A stretch of DNA of 42,567 nucleotides. Source: a virus. A program made the position numbers and the translations under genes. Shown one piece after another: positions 5,630-42,333 of this stretch; position 1 is the stretch's first letter; every line of letters begins with the position of its first letter. The stretch is taken from the IMG/VR virus record IMGVR_UViG_3300033153_002630, positions 1 to 42,567 of that record, one strand, 5' to 3'. Under the pieces are notes generated by a model. It saw only the letters and a list, made by a program, of their open reading frames with translations. It ran no database searches and had not been told where the DNA came from.

Positions 5630-7241
5630 AGCCGAAGAAATCATAAGCTTGCGCGATTCCGAGCGTACAAAGAGTACCAACATAAAGACTCTATATCAGG
5701 AATTCGCCAATTTGGGATATCCGTTGGAGAACCAGATAACCACTCAGCAGGCAGCTGGTGAGGACAGGTCTACCGCCATTCGGGACGCGACGGCTATAGA
5801 GGCACTTGAAACCGGAGCGAGCGGGTTCATAGGTGCATGGATACCGCGTGAGAAATATTTCTTCAATATACGGGTTAGGGACAGGTCGGTATCTGAATTA
5901 CCTCACGTAAAGCAATGGTTGTCTTTAGCCGTTCAAATAGCGCATGAGGAGATATTCGATGCCAATTTCGATACCGAGTTACACAACACCGCAAAAGGAA
6001 CAATGGGGTTCGGCACGGGATGTCTTTACTCCGAATGGGACTATAAGAACAAGTCTTTGAACTTTCAGGACTGGCACGTTAGTTCGTTTGAGTTCATGCA
6101 GGACTCCCGGCACAGGGCGAATGGAGTCATACTTTCATACAAGCGCCAGGCCGACCAGATTGCGAACGAATACAAGAATCCCGGCACTGATGTATTAGTC
6201 AAGGCCAACGATGTCAAGACCCAGAATACAGACTTTGAGATAATCAGGATAATCCGGCCGCGCAAGAATTACAATCCTTCTATGCGCGATGTTTCCAATA
6301 TGCCCTTTGAGGATATTCACGTAAATGCCACTGAAAAGATTGTTATTAAAGAGTCGGGATTCCCGCGCTTTCCTTTTGCTATTCCGCGATGGGAGGTTGG
6401 TTCTACGGAAAAGTGGGGCAGGGGTAGGGGCGTTCAATCGCTTTCGGAGATAAAAGACTTACAGCAGAAGTCGAAGGACATGACCGAATATAGAAACAGG
6501 CTCCTAAGACCGCCGTACATAACGAGGAACATAGAAGGCGCGGTGAACATGATGCCTGACGGTCGCACCGAAGTTATAAACATGGACGATATAAAGGCAT
6601 TGAATCTTACATCTTCCGCTGCGTTTCCCGCAGGAAAGGACGAAATAAGCGAGCAGAGAGAAACGGTAAGAAGGTTCTTCTATAATCACATTTTCACTCT
6701 ATTTACCAATATGAAGGGCGACAGGCGAACGACTCTTGAAATATTGAAGAAAGACCGCGAAGGTTTACGCTTACTCATTTCCCCCGTTGCCCGCCAACAG
6801 ACGGAGTTATTCAAACCACTGTTATCGAATGTAATTGCATTACTAATCGAATGGGGAAGAATACCACAGCCTCCGCAGGAAATTGTAGGCCAGCCGTATT
6901 CTCTTGAGTACCAGGGCGAGCTTGCAATGGCGATGAAGGAGTCTCAGGCAAGGGGATTCGAGAGGGCAATGGCGCTTATGGAAAACGGGCAGAACGTATT
7001 CCCCGATATGAAATACCAGATTAACATAGACCGGGCGATGCCGGACATTCTCACTACTTACGGAATGAAGGTCGAGCATTTGAACACGCCGGAAGAGAAG
7101 GAATTACTACGTCAGCAGGACGCCGAGCGTGAGCAGATGGTAAAGGATATGGCCGAAGCACAGTCTCAGTCGCAGGCGTATAAGGACACGACCAAGGCGC
7201 CGGAAGCAGGCAGTCCGGCAGAACAGATGGCTGGAGTATAA
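5619..7241 (+). CDS. portal protein, T7-type head-tail connector
   Basis: 540 residues, usual size for the Head_tail_con (T7 gp8-like) family. It forms the dodecameric ring at the capsid vertex through which DNA passes. Family-typical stretches: TAIRDATAIEALETGASGFIGAW near the N-terminus, the FGTGCLYSEWD region, PRFPFAIPRWEVGSTEKWGRGRGV in the centre, and a long helical barrel-like C-terminus ending in a Gln/Glu-rich tail. It follows TerL and precedes the scaffold and capsid genes. Confidence 0.88.
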   Translation: MDTKAEEIISLRDSERTKSTNIKTLYQEFANLGYPLENQITTQQAAGEDRSTAIRDATAIEALETGASGFIGAWIPREKYFFNIRVRDRSVSELPHVKQWLSLAVQIAHEEIFDANFDTELHNTAKGTMGFGTGCLYSEWDYKNKSLNFQDWHVSSFEFMQDSRHRANGVILSYKRQADQIANEYKNPGTDVLVKANDVKTQNTDFEIIRIIRPRKNYNPSMRDVSNMPFEDIHVNATEKIVIKESGFPRFPFAIPRWEVGSTEKWGRGRGVQSLSEIKDLQQKSKDMTEYRNRLLRPPYITRNIEGAVNMMPDGRTEVINMDDIKALNLTSSAAFPAGKDEISEQRETVRRFFYNHIFTLFTNMKGDRRTTLEILKKDREGLRLLISPVARQQTELFKPLLSNVIALLIEWGRIPQPPQEIVGQPYSLEYQGELAMAMKESQARGFERAMALMENGQNVFPDMKYQINIDRAMPDILTTYGMKVEHLNTPEEKELLRQQDAEREQMVKDMAEAQSQSQAYKDTTKAPEAGSPAEQMAGV

Positions 7242-27592: not shown

Positions 27593-27799
27593 ATGCCAGA
27601 CGGACAAGACAACTCTGACGCAAACAAAAATCACGGCTCTCGCTCCCAACTCCTGAAGAAGTCCGTCTGGCGATGCCACTTCGTAGGTTTCTACTTGGGG
27701 CGAGAGCTTATTTTTAAGAAAGGGAAATCATGGTTTCAAATATGGCTTTTGCCTAAACCTGACGTTGAGTGGATTAAAAAATGTTACAGGAGATGTTAA
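27593..27799 (+). CDS. first gene of the right operon, hypothetical
   Basis: 68 residues from ATG 27593 (GAGGATTGACT upstream). Polar N-terminus then basic/aromatic core (KSVWRCHFVGFYLGRELIFK; KSWFQIWLLPKPDVEW). As the first product from the strong promoter it may act early on host functions; this is inference. No family recognised. Confidence 0.55.
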   Translation: MPDGQDNSDANKNHGSRSQLLKKSVWRCHFVGFYLGRELIFKKGKSWFQIWLLPKPDVEWIKKCYRRC

Positions 27800-28129: not shown

Positions 28130-28579
28130 ATGAAAACTATAATACTAAATCTCCAAGACAAGAACTACGTCAGAGCCTTTGGCTTAATGACGCCGGAAGA
28201 ACAGGAATGCTACAAGAAAGTGGGCAGAAGCAATTGTGATTGCATTGTGAATGGAAAATGGGATACACGCACAGGCAGTGGCAATGAATTTGATCCTGAC
28301 TACACCTACGCCATCAAGCCCGACTACAAGCCTGAGCCGGAGTTCGTGGACTTGGAGGTAAAAGAGAATGATGGTTGGTTGGGATGTGAAAAAACAAAAG
28401 ATATGCCGATATATTATGTCGAGGCCGATTTCATCCATCTCCATTGCCTGCCGAGCCTGCCGAACTTCGAGGGGTTTCTGATTAAGCAAGAAGGAATGGA
28501 AAACGAAAAGTGGTTTCTTCAAGGCATTGCCAAACAAATGTCCGAAGGCAAGAAAGTCTATGCGAGGTTTAAGCAATAA
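28130..28579 (+). CDS. hypothetical early protein
   Basis: 149 residues, mixed alpha/beta. MTPEEQECYKKVGRSNCDCI near residues 20-39 and an aromatic acidic middle. AGGAAGGGCAAGAA precedes the ATG. It is the last gene before the 1-kb structured region. No family recognised. Confidence 0.55.
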   Translation: MKTIILNLQDKNYVRAFGLMTPEEQECYKKVGRSNCDCIVNGKWDTRTGSGNEFDPDYTYAIKPDYKPEPEFVDLEVKENDGWLGCEKTKDMPIYYVEADFIHLHCLPSLPNFEGFLIKQEGMENEKWFLQGIAKQMSEGKKVYARFKQ

Positions 28580-28614
28580 CGACAAGCAAGCTCATTGAAA
28601 CTTAAATAGAATAA

Positions 28615-28719
28615 GGGACGGCGGCGTGTGTGAAACGCAAGGGCAAGATGCTGCATGGGAGGTGTTATCTGGCTATGCCGGAACGTAAGCATCAGTAGGT
28701 TAAAATCCTGCCCGTCCCA
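28615..28719 (+). ncRNA. tRNA-like structured element 1
   Basis: 105 bases. GGGACGG (28615-28621) pairs with CCGTCCC (28712-28718), followed by A28719 in the discriminator position. After CG comes a D-arm-like helix GCGT/ACGC (28624-28627, 28635-28638). Abutting the acceptor is a perfect T-arm geometry: GTAGG / CCTGC (28695-28699, 28707-28711) with the 7-base loop TTAAAAT. The middle is 56 bases, with helices GATGCT/AGCATC and CTGGC/GCCGG, too large for an anticodon arm plus variable loop. No CCA encoded. Confidence 0.6.
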
Positions 28720-28726
28720 ATATAGA

Positions 28727-28890
28727 AGTCCGGCGGTGGCGTGGTCAGTGACGTAGTTGCAGGAGGCTTACGAGCAGTAAATGCTGATAGCTGTGCGATG
28801 GTCAGAAGGTTGGATTTGTGGAATAGCTACCACATCTATGCCAATATCGTGCCGTAGACACAACGATGACCGAATCCTGCCCGCCGGACT
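28727..28890 (+). ncRNA. tRNA-like structured element 2
   Basis: 164 bases closed by a perfect 10-bp helix, AGTCCGGCGG with CCGCCGGACT. Register as in element 1: acceptor CCGGCGG, then TG, then GCGT/ACGT (28739-28742, 28751-28754). CCTGC again precedes the 3' acceptor strand, here pairing with GCAGG 28759-28763. Inside: GGTCA 28800-28804 with TGACC 28867-28871, TTGG/CCAA, and hairpin TGTGG/CCACA (28817-28834). Confidence 0.6.
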
Positions 28891-28909
28891 GTCATCATAC
28901 CCTCCTCCA

Positions 28910-28950
28910 AGCCGGGGCTCCCTCCTACTTTCCCTCTTAAAGCCCCGGCT
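28910..28950 (+). ncRNA. 10-bp hairpin with CCTCC-containing pyrimidine loop
   Basis: AGCCGGGGCT (28910-28919) pairs perfectly with AGCCCCGGCT (28941-28950). The 21-base loop is almost all pyrimidine and contains CCCTCCTAC, complementary to Shine-Dalgarno sequences and similar to the 3' tail of 16S rRNA. ACCCTCCTCC also lies just 5'. Could bind ribosome-binding sites; speculative. Confidence 0.5.
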
Positions 28951-28959
28951 GAAAAATCG

Positions 28960-28990
28960 ACGGTGGGGCACGGATGCCTTGCCGTTTTAT
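28960..28990 (+). terminator. terminator-like hairpin inside the structured region
   Basis: ACGGTGGGGCA (28960-28970) pairs with TGCCTTGCCGT (28975-28985), 11 bp including G-U pairs, tetraloop CGGA, followed by TTTATAAT. It would end transcripts carrying elements 1 and 2, or act as a processing boundary. The U tract is short, so readthrough is likely. Confidence 0.6.
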
Positions 28991-29018
28991 AATACTTTGA
29001 AAATTAAATATTGCCAGC

Positions 29019-29157
29019 AAGAGGTGGCGGCGTGGTCTTTGCAAAGACGTAAGTATGCCATGAAGTTGAGTAATTAACCACGATACACAAGCACTCAACG
29101 GAACGTAACGTATGGCAGGTAGCTGATGGCAAGCTAGTAAAATACTGCTCGCCTCTT
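29019..29157 (+). ncRNA. tRNA-like structured element 3
   Basis: Outer helix AAGAGGTGG with TCGCCTCTT; in tRNA register GAGGTGG (29021-29027) with TCGCCTC (29149-29155), then CG, then GCGT/ACGT (29030-29033, 29047-29050). Inside: TGCCAT 29056-29061 with ATGGCA 29112-29117 and GTTGAG 29065-29070 with CTCAAC 29094-29099. A short stem GC(T)AGT/ACTGC just before the 3' strand resembles the T-arm of element 1. CGGAACGTAA is shared with element 1. Confidence 0.58.
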
Positions 29158-29176
29158 CTGGCTCTTATAAGTAAAT

Positions 29177-29276
29177 AAGGAGCAGTGGCATGTTACATGC
29201 TGGTGGAAAAGAGACTATGCTAAACTCGGTCCCCAAAGTCGTTACGTAACGCATTGTATGTTCATGCCGGCTCCTT
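29177..29276 (+). ncRNA. tRNA-like structured element 4
   Basis: 100 bases. AA-GGAGCAG (29177-29185) pairs with CGGCTCC-TT (29268-29276), one mismatch. Then TG and GCATG/CATGC (29188-29192, 29196-29200) around TTA. This helix replaces the GCGT/ACGY of the others with a compensated change (GCAT/ATGC). GTTACGTAAC lies in the 3' half. Confidence 0.52.
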
Positions 29277-29290
29277 TTGACAAGTTAATA

Positions 29291-29444
29291 TGGGAGTTGC
29301 TGGTAATGGTGGACGCGGAAATATAAGGACGTCGGGCTATCAAAACGGTGCACCAAAGTAGATAGTTGCAGGTCGTTGAATCAAGCAAAGCCATAGTAAA
29401 AGGCCACAGATATATTGACGCCAGATAAAGACCACTCCCACCAT
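29291..29444 (+). ncRNA. possible structured element 5, weaker
   Basis: Two alternative closing helices: TGGGAGT 29291-29297 with ACTCCCA 29434-29440, or ATGGTGG 29306-29312 with CCACCAT 29438-29444; the latter is followed by TTTTT. GACG 29312-29315 can pair with CGTC 29330-29333. The YG-GCRU register is not clear, so membership of the family is uncertain. Confidence 0.35.
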
Positions 29445-29460
29445 TTTTAATAAATAAATC

Positions 29461-29612
29461 GGCTTCGGGGCGTAGGACAGGAGGTCAAAGAGTAAATCTT
29501 GTTTTATGTTTTGGTTTGTTTTTGGAGATGTTTCAAATGACAAATATACACCTCAAAAATATATAGGAAACAAGTAAAGCGTTTAACTTTTACACGGATG
29601 GTCCCCGAAGCC
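29461..29612 (+). ncRNA. possible structured element 6, weaker
   Basis: GGCTTCGGGG (29461-29470) pairs perfectly with CCCCGAAGCC (29603-29612). CTTGTTT and AAACAAG form an inner 7-bp helix (about 29498-29504 and 29568-29574), and GTAAA/TTTAC another. The 3' strand lies 17 bases before the ATG at 29630, so folding could affect translation of that gene. It lacks the GCRU helix of elements 1-4. Confidence 0.4.
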
Positions 29613-29629: not shown

Positions 29630-30076
29630 ATGAATCCAGCACACATAGCCGAAGCTGAACGAATTGGAATGCCGGAAGGCAAGATAGAGACTCATCGCTG
29701 CCGTCAATGCGACGCAAAAGGCGCCGAGGATGGCGACAAGTGCGACGAGTGTGGTCGGGAATGTTGCCCGAAATGTTGGTTTTGGATACCCAGTATAGCT
29801 TTAAGGTTTTGCGGTCGGGATTGTGCAATTACAAGATTGCTTAAACTTCTGGAAATCGCGGAGACAAAGGACAATAGCAATGACTTATTTACCGAATACA
29901 AAGAAGGCAATCAAAGCTTTAGGAGAATAGCAATGGAACCAATTGAAGAATTACACGAATGTTGCCCAGTCGATTTACCATCTACTATTGGCGTGATAAC
30001 CGAACTTACCTGGGCAGTAAGCCAGTTAATTGCGGCTCATAACAAAAAAATCGAAGAGGAGAATGATGATGGATAA
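29630..30076 (+). CDS. zinc-ribbon protein
   Basis: 148 residues. Cys-rich N-terminal half: C-R-Q-C, C-D-E-C, C-C-P-K-C, then C-G-R-D-C (residues 24-66), two probable zinc ribbons or a treble clef. The C-terminal half (from residue 102, MEPIEELHECCPVDLPSTIG) is helical and preceded by AGGAGAATAGCA, so an internal start making a short product is possible. TTTTTGGAGAATAGAA precedes the main ATG. Function unknown. Confidence 0.6.
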   Translation: MNPAHIAEAERIGMPEGKIETHRCRQCDAKGAEDGDKCDECGRECCPKCWFWIPSIALRFCGRDCAITRLLKLLEIAETKDNSNDLFTEYKEGNQSFRRIAMEPIEELHECCPVDLPSTIGVITELTWAVSQLIAAHNKKIEEENDDG

Positions 30077-34092: not shown

Positions 34093-34276
34093 ACCTTGCC
34101 CGTTTTGCGGAAACATTATAATGAGCATAACAACATCATGGTTCAAGCATGGATATACTGGTTATGTTCATTGTGAAACATGTAAAGTATCAGGTCCAGT
34201 AAAAAAAACACAAAAAGCTGCGGTTCGAACATGGAATAAAAGGGTTTCTGATAATGAAGATAATAAGTTGGTTTAG
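34082..34276 (+). CDS. Lar-like restriction alleviation protein
   Basis: 64 residues starting MRLKPCPFCGNIIMSI, the LKPCPFCG signature of the Lar family, then C-E-T-C and a conserved A-x-x-x-W-N-x-R end (AAVRTWNKRV). Rac Lar reduces EcoRI-type type I restriction; many phage members are known only by this zinc fold. Overlaps the preceding gene by 11 bases and the next by 23. Located near two nucleic-acid-modifying enzymes, consistent with a counter-defence role. Confidence 0.7.
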   Translation: MRLKPCPFCGNIIMSITTSWFKHGYTGYVHCETCKVSGPVKKTQKAAVRTWNKRVSDNEDNKLV

Positions 34277-34973
34277 CGCAGGAGTGTCATCGGCAGTGGC
34301 AACTAAGCTATATATTGATAAAATAGATGAGATATACTATACCCATATCGAAGACCAGCACCACGATACTTTGCGATTCATTAAAGAATGCTCTCATTGG
34401 TTCGGAAAAGAAGTTAAAATACTAATCTCTCCCTACAAAACAGTTGAAAACGCATGCCTCTCTTCTGGCGGTCGAGGTTATATCAATGGCCCATCCGGTG
34501 CTGCGTGTACGAAATTTTTGAAGCGTAGGGTTCGTAGGGAATGGGAAATAGAGCAGAAAGATAAATTAACTTACGTATGGGGACTCGATTGCGATGAGGC
34601 AGATAGGATTGATAGAATTGAGAATGGAATGCCAAACCAGGAGCACATTTTCCCATTATTAAACAAAGGTATCAGTAAAGATGCGGCACATAAAATATTG
34701 AGGGCTTCTGGCATCAAACGACCAGAAATGTATTCATTAGGCTATTCAAATAACAACTGCATTGGATGTGTTAAGGGTGGAATGGGATACTGGAATAAAA
34801 TTAGACAGGATTTTCCAGAAGTATTTGCAAAGCGAGCGGCAATGGAAAGAAGGATTCGGGCTACGTGCATAAAAGGTGTTTATCTCGATGAGCTATCACC
34901 AGAAAGAGGCAGAATGAGCAAGCCTATCGTTGAAGAGTGCGGAATATTTTGTGAGCAGATGAGAATTGGATAA
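34254..34973 (+). CDS. PAPS-reductase-like PP-loop protein
   Basis: 239 residues. MKIISWFSAGVSSAVATKL contains the PP-loop S-A-G-V-S-S (8-13) of adenine nucleotide alpha-hydrolases. GAACTKFLKRR (C85) and NNNCIGCVKGGMGYWNKIRQ (C169, C172) are features of the phosphoadenosine phosphosulfate reductase-like family frequent in phages. Members activate substrates with ATP or handle sulfur; a role in nucleic-acid or metabolite modification is inference. It overlaps the Lar-like gene. Confidence 0.75.
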   Translation: MKIISWFSAGVSSAVATKLYIDKIDEIYYTHIEDQHHDTLRFIKECSHWFGKEVKILISPYKTVENACLSSGGRGYINGPSGAACTKFLKRRVRREWEIEQKDKLTYVWGLDCDEADRIDRIENGMPNQEHIFPLLNKGISKDAAHKILRASGIKRPEMYSLGYSNNNCIGCVKGGMGYWNKIRQDFPEVFAKRAAMERRIRATCIKGVYLDELSPERGRMSKPIVEECGIFCEQMRIG

Positions 34974-37803: not shown

Positions 37804-37869
37804 GGGGCGGTGGCGTGACGTTATAGGCGTGAACGCGGTGAAAGTCCCAGCAAAGTCGCCGCCCCGTTT
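37804..37869 (+). ncRNA. tRNA-like element 7 / terminator-like structure
   Basis: GGGGCGG (37804-37810) pairs with CCGCCCC (37859-37865), then TG and GCGT (37813-37816), matching the register of elements 1-4; ACGC at 37833-37836 is the partner. The 3' strand is followed by GTTTTG, so it may also terminate. It shares the 16-base TGGAGTACGGGGGCGG with element 8 300 bases on. Confidence 0.55.
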
Positions 37870-38104: not shown

Positions 38105-38138
38105 GGGGCGGCGGCTCACGGGGTTGCCGCCCCATTTT
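38105..38138 (+). terminator. element 8: collapsed copy of element 7, terminator-like
   Basis: GGGGCGGC (38105-38112) pairs with GCCGCCCC (38126-38133), 8 bp, 13-base loop, followed by ATTTTATC. The same closing helix and 5' flank as element 7, but the internal domain is missing. It lies immediately before the methyltransferase ATG (38142), leaving no room for a Shine-Dalgarno site. Confidence 0.7.
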
Positions 38139-38141
38139 ATC

Positions 38142-40732: not shown

Positions 40733-40790
40733 GAGCCCCTCGGCGGAGGACACTGGCAAGTGTGATGGCGCAAATACCGCTCCGGGGCTC
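40733..40790 (-). other. structured spacer between the two paralogues
   Basis: GAGCCCC (40733-40739) pairs with GGGGCTC (40784-40790), 7 bp perfect, with CGGAG/CTCCG-type inner pairing and an ACACT/AGTGT inner hairpin (about 40750-40762). The following 40791-40863 also contains a GGCG-CT-CGCC hairpin. No T tract on either strand. Possibly separates the mRNA of the duplicated genes. Confidence 0.45.
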
Positions 40791-40863
40791 TTGTTTCGTT
40801 TTGTCCAGTGTCAAGCTCATAGGCTCGCGTCGTAGGGCAAAATACGGCGCTCGCCTGCGGGCT

Positions 40864-41070
40864 TTAATCGTCCAATAAGTCAGAGCATTTACGTAGTTGA
40901 TCTATGAGGCAACGGACGCTATCCTCTTGTACCTTATTACACAAGTCCGCCTCATAACTCCATTCAGTAAGCGCGTCAGCCAGATTTTTTATTTTGGTAC
41001 TATGGTTGATTATCCTACTTAGTCGATGATACTCGTTTACGGCCTCTATTTGTGTTTCTTGCTTTGCCAT
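40864..41070 (-). CDS. small helical protein, paralogue B
   Basis: 68 residues from ATG 41070 (MAKQETQIEAVNEYHRLSRI; AAGG 8 bases upstream; an ATG three codons earlier is too close to it). Duplicate of the gene at 40497 with conserved SRI-x-N, EWSYEADL-x-N, EDSVR and CSD-x-LD. Both may form similar helical dimers. Unknown role. Confidence 0.65.
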   Translation of the reverse strand: MAKQETQIEAVNEYHRLSRIINHSTKIKNLADALTEWSYEADLCNKVQEDSVRCLIDQLRKCSDLLDD

Positions 41071-42160: not shown

Positions 42161-42280
42161 ATGATGGAATTCGAGTTAAATAATGTCTATGACGGGTCGC
42201 TCGGTTTGGGCTTAGTAAAACAGACCAGGCGGCCCGCTTTTTATTTAGGTGTAGGTAGTCTCGATACTACGAGGGCTTGA
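42161..42280 (+). CDS. 39-residue ORF overlapping an sRNA-like transcript
   Basis: MMEFELNNVYDGSLGLGLVK then QTRRPAFYLGVGSLDTTRA. It begins 35 bases after the predicted start site, but the ribosome site is poor and a terminator lies within it, so the transcript may instead be a short non-coding RNA (about 42125-42245). Confidence 0.3.
   Translation: MMEFELNNVYDGSLGLGLVKQTRRPAFYLGVGSLDTTRA
42193..42245 (+). terminator. branched terminator
   Basis: CGGGTCGC (42193-42200) pairs with GCGGCCCG (42229-42236); inside, GGTTTG (42203-42208) pairs with CAGACC (42221-42226). The outer stem is followed by CTTTTTATTT. It lies about 70 bases past the predicted start of the promoter at 42092, defining a short transcript or an attenuated leader. 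Confidence 0.7.
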
Positions 42281-42333
42281 GAGCATATCGAGGGCAAAGG
42301 TTCGGCATTGTAGAAACTAACTGTTTTACTAAG
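42211..42333. repeat. 13-bp perfect inverted repeat
   Basis: CTTAGTAAAACAG (42211-42223) and CTGTTTTACTAAG (42321-42333), 97 bases apart. The left copy is the loop of the terminator at 42193, so pairing with the right copy would compete with its inner stem. Confidence 0.75.

Follow-up and report, generated by a model that had tools for sequence, protein, structure and literature searches.

The stretch of DNA analysed here, the window, covers the 42,567 bases of one virus record (IMGVR_UViG_3300033153_002630), a single genome that stands behind the whole case, and between positions 28580 and 29630 it contains a gap of about 1 kb that holds an array of structured elements. The explanation that we favour, at slightly less than an even chance, is that this gap is an untranslated RNA locus with tandem paralogous copies of one non-decoding tRNA-like RNA gene. 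The window encodes podovirus-type proteins (terminase, portal/head-tail adaptor, major head protein, tail and internal virion proteins), and after the structural genes come those of a YqaJ/RecE-type exonuclease, a replication initiator, a Holliday junction resolvase and a DNA methyltransferase, the recombination and replication genes lying from 30030 on, just downstream of the array. The gap is flanked by a 149-aa gene that ends at 28579 and a 148-aa gene that starts at 29630, and it contains no credible gene. The codon-usage scores of its open reading frames are all negative (−0.106, −0.135 and −0.01 bits per codon), against +0.18 and +0.11 for the flanking genes and +0.09 to +0.28 for known genes, and hence the gap is non-coding; PHROG matches for these reading frames were not found.

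Four elements are located in the array, at 28615 (E1), 28730 (E2), 29021 (E3) and 29179 (E4), and have in common a 5'-GYGGCRTG sequence beside a closing helix (P1), whose 3' strand is directly preceded by NNTGC. The strands of P1 over seven positions are GGGACGG/CCGTCCC at 28615; CCGGCGG/CCGCCGG at 28730, where the helix has 10 bp if counted from 28727; GAGGTGG/TCGCCTC at 29021, with 9 bp from 29019, two G-U pairs included; GGAGCAG/CGGCTCC at 29179, with one A-G mismatch and two more A-T pairs outside; and GGGGCGG/CCGCCCC at 37804. The original prediction had placed a seven-position closing helix, YG and GCRTG at all five coordinates, and this was confirmed both against shuffles and by a sequence-anchored test. 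A layout descriptor, drawn after the data had been seen, asked for a 7-bp helix and then, after 0-4 nt, for GCRT and a 4-bp pairing partner; it gave four matches in 900 bases against a mean of 0.14 per shuffle, and none of 1000 shuffles reached four. Since this descriptor came from the same data, the sequence-anchored test was added, in which every GYGGCRTG on both strands was taken and a partner was sought, 40-180 nt downstream, for the heptamer whose last base is the first G of the motif. Seven such sites exist in the window, five of them in gaps (E1-E4 and 37804), with helix P values of 0.0085, 0.0085, 0.04, 0.0095 and 0.0075, and two inside genes, with values of 0.46 and 0.92, that is, no helix. 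The pentamer ahead of the P1 3' strand, which was not a selection criterion, is CCTGC, CCTGC, ACTGC and CATGC in E1-E4.

The closing helix of every array copy varies in sequence but keeps its pairing, as had been predicted. In a trimmed four-copy alignment of P1 and the D-like helix, 97.7% of the cells are paired, against 83.0% when shuffled (0/500), and the signal is destroyed if the partner strand is slid. Both-sided pair changes are found at 5 of 11 positions (1/500 shuffles), a covariation-like count that stands on weak ground, as it comes from only four sequences with hand-trimmed ends, chosen partly by pairing, and more weight was therefore given to the anchored GYGGCRTG test.

E1 (28615-28719; this and the following elements are on the plus strand) is tRNA-like beyond chance. 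Its P1 (28615-28621/28712-28718) is followed by CG, a D-like stem GCGT/ACGC (28624-28638), a three-way middle domain and a T-like arm, GTAGG-TTAAAAT-CCTGC (28695-28711); CCA is absent. The claim that a 5-7-5 T-arm adjoins the acceptor and that an A discriminator follows proved right on both counts. The minimum-energy fold is the acceptor/D/T cloverleaf, so that forcing P1 and P2 costs 0. A tRNA descriptor required an acceptor, a two-base linker, a D arm and, directly against the acceptor, a 5-7-5 T arm with a T[TC]NRANN loop. Applied to the window together with every fetched locus (3.07 Mb, both strands counted), it gave eight matches: E1, six genuine tRNAs (71-73 nt) and one unrelated 127-nt chance match. 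About one false match per 3 Mb predicts 0.03 in the window, and it is on this account that E1 exceeds chance. E1 combines acceptor, D and T arms spaced as in a tRNA, which E3 and E4 do not, and a T-arm whose loop has 7 nt is peculiar to E1 among the copies, E2-E4 being without a normal T arm; the E1 T-loop, TTAAAAT, carries an A where C56 is expected. The structure of an RNase P substrate (acceptor stem, T-stem and T-loop) is accordingly predicted for E1 only. At the place of the anticodon arm E1 has a domain of 50-60 nt, and the expected lack of an anticodon arm held, since no proper one (5-bp, 7-nt loop) is present; the intron mode of ARAGORN draws an arm only at relaxed thresholds, where its 72 calls in the window are noise. 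Standard ARAGORN reports no tRNA in the window, and the Rfam tRNA model gives nothing on the array even at E 10, while as a control it detected the tRNAs of a close relative, L003. A relaxed descriptor with acceptor, D and stacked stem, which included E2, was discarded as unspecific (20 matches in the window).

The remaining copies depart from this arrangement to different degrees. E2 (28727-28890) has a 10-bp P1, AGTCCGGCGG/CCGCCGGACT, then TG and GCGT/ACGT, and an inner stem, GCAGGA (28759) with TCCTGC (28875-28880), abutting P1; P1 plus the D-like stem costs 0.4 kcal/mol and is nearly optimal. E3 (29019-29157) is closed by a 9-bp P1, AAGAGGTGG/TCGCCTCTT, and its D-like stem costs 6.8 kcal/mol, a GTCTTT/AAAGAC hairpin being favoured instead; its fold is no better than shuffles. 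E4 (29177-29276) has the P1 AAGGAGC/GCTCCTT and ends in TTTT; here the D-like stem costs 11.6 kcal/mol and GGCATG pairs with CATGCC at probability 1.0, giving a rod and no cloverleaf. The tRNA-type acceptor and D-stem proposed for the elements are thus favoured in E1, nearly so in E2, and unfavourable as a fold in E3 and E4. The element at 37804-37865, E4-like, also folds as a rod, of 11 bp (GGGGCGGTGGC/GTCGCCGCCCC), followed by TTTT and terminator-like in form, so that its standing as fifth element is upheld by closing helix, YG and GCRTG and not by its fold, and a strict tRNA layout in all five had to be given up. A reduced copy of it, a terminator-type hairpin with a T-run, is located at 38105-38140 (38105-38134 being a shortened copy of the 37804 element, z 5.0 in the shuffle comparison). 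E6 (29290-29443), which the original prediction missed, has no GYGGCRTG; it has an E4-like middle, its minimum-energy fold closes at TGGGAGT/ACTCCCA, the whole fold being no better than shuffles, and its 3' end is CTCCCACCA followed by TTTTT.

Relatedness among the copies was measured as local alignment score against random stretches of the window, and a shuffle version was also run. No random segment was as similar as E1 and E3 (0/578) or E4 and E6 (0/580), and three were as similar as E1 and E2 (3/585); the weaker pairs were E4-37804 (4/573), E1-E4 (13/569), E3-E4 (28/574) and E2-E3 (29/567). E1 and E3 have in common GGCGGCGTG, ACGYAAG, CGGAACGTAA and TAAAAT.CTGC.CG. By sequence comparison E1/E3 and E4/E6 are clearly paralogues, and the relationships beyond these two pairs are indicated more weakly. 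The notion of a multi-copy family is consequently borne out by the similarity of the copies and the anchored helix, with E6 to be added. An alignment of the full-length copies with MAFFT misaligned the middles and was set aside, as was a covariance model built from the trimmed ends, which had the 38105 hairpin as its top match and was unusable because the middles of the elements were missing.

A strong intrinsic terminator (28959-28990; 12-bp hairpin, 4-nt loop, TTTT; ΔG −17.4 kcal/mol, z −4.2) stands after E2; both it and the 10-bp hairpin before it (28910-28950) are on the plus strand. The form of an intrinsic terminator (G+C-rich, short loop, U-run) is seen in 28959-28990 and 38105-38140 and not in E1-E3, which have no T-run and long spans. 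Because this terminator follows E2, E1-E2 could be a unit of their own, and the array RNAs are probably made as discrete transcripts. On the plus strand, TTGAAACTTAAA (28595-28606) lies upstream of E1, its enrichment not significant, and TTGAAAATTAAA (28997-29008) lies upstream of E3, with a one-mismatch form just before the tRNA-Met of L003, not significant alone. The TTGAAAMTTAAA box was rejected as a promoter, its frequency not being above chance; that it stands ahead of both E1 and E3, and that L003 has a near copy ahead of its tRNA-Met, is suggestive, not significant. Promoter-like matches near the array were not usefully above expectation. Directly after the array, at 29461-29612, a perfect 10-bp helix, GGCTTCGGGG/CCCCGAAGCC, with a span of 152 nt is followed by CTTTTT, and shows no sequence similarity with the array copies.

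Other structured gaps were observed in the window. At 27594-27708, a non-coding gap, two perfect 12-bp helices (27594-27605/27661-27672 and 27635-27646/27697-27708) are interleaved in a pseudoknot topology, followed by TTATTTTT. At 42193-42333, within the leader ahead of the late genes, CGGGTCGCT/GGCGGCCCG (42193/42236) is interleaved with a perfect 13-bp helix, CTTAGTAAAACAG/CTGTTTTACTAAG (42211/42333). The motif GCYTATGAGC occurs three times on the minus strand (40815, 41106 and 41389), upstream of minus-strand genes, with 0.08 expected, and once before the L003 tRNA-Met; it is possibly a phage regulatory motif. A 58-nt element on the minus strand (40737-40794), closed by GAGCCCC/GGGGCTC, is located where L003 has tRNA-Met, and its fold is weakly above shuffles.

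This phage group owns tRNA genes, since L003 carries two of them at its end, at Rfam gathering level (57.8 and 49.1 bits; the window has none), the anticodon arm of the second being poor, and another relative, L009, has a tRNA-Met at a different location. The L003 tRNAs adjoin a non-coding stretch conserved with 40813-40868 of the window (87.5%). The portal protein led to the closest records, fragments of 4-19 kb with 73-88% identity that cover the left part of the genome and not the array; portal and YqaJ relatives were found, on contigs without the array, and neighbouring proteins (28130, 29630, 20731 and 22149) yielded no relatives. A blastn search with the array returned short matches or none from phages and plasmids, and one of 33 related records short chance matches only. 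Two IMG/VR pattern scans, a weak test for a fast-changing RNA, found chance matches in genes, and a match in L002, an unrelated phage fragment, was rejected because the motif had no closing helix. The same fragment has a tRNA-Val-like gene (6766-6836, minus), reported by ARAGORN only at a slightly lowered threshold, and encodes at 5973-6659 a protein resembling the product of a PAPS-reductase-family gene of the window (34254-34973, phage early region); when contigs were scanned with a PAPS reductase-like protein, no useful relatives of the array locus came up. Homologues of the array were thus found in none of the collections searched, with scans that are weak and contigs of the closest relatives that stop short of the region. 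The Rfam 15 covariance models (tRNA, YrlA, ROOL, GOLLD and others) have no match in the window, in agreement with the original statement that no named family was recognised, and this, together with the kept helix and the similarity among copies, supports a structured RNA family outside Rfam.

The main rivals of the favoured reading are tRNA decay and a simple intergenic role in termination or processing. The copies could be closed RNA domains serving between genes as terminators or as RNase III/E processing or stability elements, the E1 cloverleaf being partly coincidence, an unlikely explanation that nevertheless fits the T-runs after E4, E6, 37804 and 38105, the rod of E4, the plain terminator-type hairpin to which the 37804 element is reduced at 38105, and the location in gaps of many of the strongest G+C-rich perfect helices of the window. 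Terminators do not need spans of 100-165 nt or shared core sequences, though, E1, E2 and E3 have no T-run, the genuine terminator stands apart after E2, and E1 passes a tRNA-specific descriptor. The other main rival sees in the copies the remains of a former tRNA cluster that lost its anticodon arms, gained insertions and is functionless. The two tRNAs of L003, one with a poor anticodon arm, the different location of tRNA-Met in L003 and L009, and the retention of the T-arm by E1 alone speak for decay; P1 is nevertheless kept in every array copy despite sequence change at several pairs, CGGAACGTAA, internal to E1 and E3, is no tRNA motif, and the copies exceed tRNA length and are internally folded; decay is held to be somewhat less probable still.

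An early-operon leader RNA that acts in cis, such as an antiterminator working on RNA polymerase like put of HK022, would account for at least two paralogous structured RNAs just upstream of recombination and replication genes and for a terminator between copies; the gene at 29630 begins 350 nt past E4, which speaks against it, and we hold it highly improbable. Chance hairpins in an untranslated gap are barely credible: the folds of E3 and E6 are no better than shuffles and the helix count across the window is only in slight excess (181 against 162-174 in random sequence), but the layout was reached in 0/1000 shuffles, and the joint anchored-helix probabilities and the significant similarity among copies stand against them.

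According to the reading of tandem tRNA-like genes, the ancestor would be a gene for a tRNA or a tRNA-like RNA such as L003 has kept, and the array copies would not decode. RNase P recognises acceptor, T-stem and T-loop (PMC11143913) and needs little beyond them, which makes E1 a plausible substrate: the host enzyme would cleave at least this copy at the 5' end, so that a discrete small RNA accumulates, likely acting as a tRNA-like decoy or as a stable processing unit in infection. Later copies would have drifted to plain closed hairpins (E4, 37804 and 38105), some of which may act as terminators. Against a tRNA-like gene are the blank result of the Rfam tRNA model, the T-arm limited to E1 and the costly D-stem in E3 and E4.

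Compared with tRNA (RF00005), E1 has the 7-bp acceptor, joined through two bases to a 4-bp D arm, the 5-7-5 T arm next to the acceptor and the A discriminator, and the array resembles phage tRNA arrays in being tandem, with a spacer of 8 nt between E1 and E2 and a relative, L003, with true tRNAs. It differs in that the copies have 100-165 nt, no anticodon arm, no Rfam or ARAGORN match and no CCA, except for a CCACCA-like end of E6. The bacterial Y RNA YrlA (RF02553) carries a tRNA-like module; it has no Rfam match in the window, and no Ro/TROVE protein was seen among the proteins scanned around the gap. As precedents for phage RNAs without a known function, RNAC and RNAD of T4 and the ROOL and GOLLD RNAs come nearest. 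RNAC and RNAD are located in the T4 tRNA cluster. They are small phage-coded RNAs, seen by northern blot, whose function is unknown (PMC9697503); the array, likened to them by description only, differs in consisting of paralogous copies. ROOL and GOLLD are structured phage RNAs of unknown function often found near tRNA islands (PMC12286853), far larger than the array copies, of other structure and without an Rfam match in the window. RNase P also processes the phage M3 and C4 RNAs, as well as closely spaced T4 pre-tRNA dimers without CCA (PMC11143913). M3 RNA and the C4 antisense RNA have a tRNA-like fold without decoding (PMC11143913), which is also the reading favoured for E1, and cleavage by RNase P is possible for the array as well.

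The array looks unlike any catalogued RNA: neither Rfam 15 nor GenBank phages, plasmids or the IMG/VR pattern scans gave a match. That it represents a new RNA class, tandem non-decoding tRNA mimics with an enlarged core, processed by the host and occupying or misleading host tRNA enzymes, is a doubtful extension of the favoured reading; RNase P, tRNA-cleaving defence nucleases and modification enzymes would be the possible targets of such mimics. Phages encode tRNAs plus a few stable RNAs of unknown role. Duplicated tRNA-like RNAs in which decoding is lost and the closing helices are kept would offer a simple system for studying what a tRNA-shaped RNA that does not take part in translation may bring to a phage, for example as a decoy against tRNA-cutting defences.
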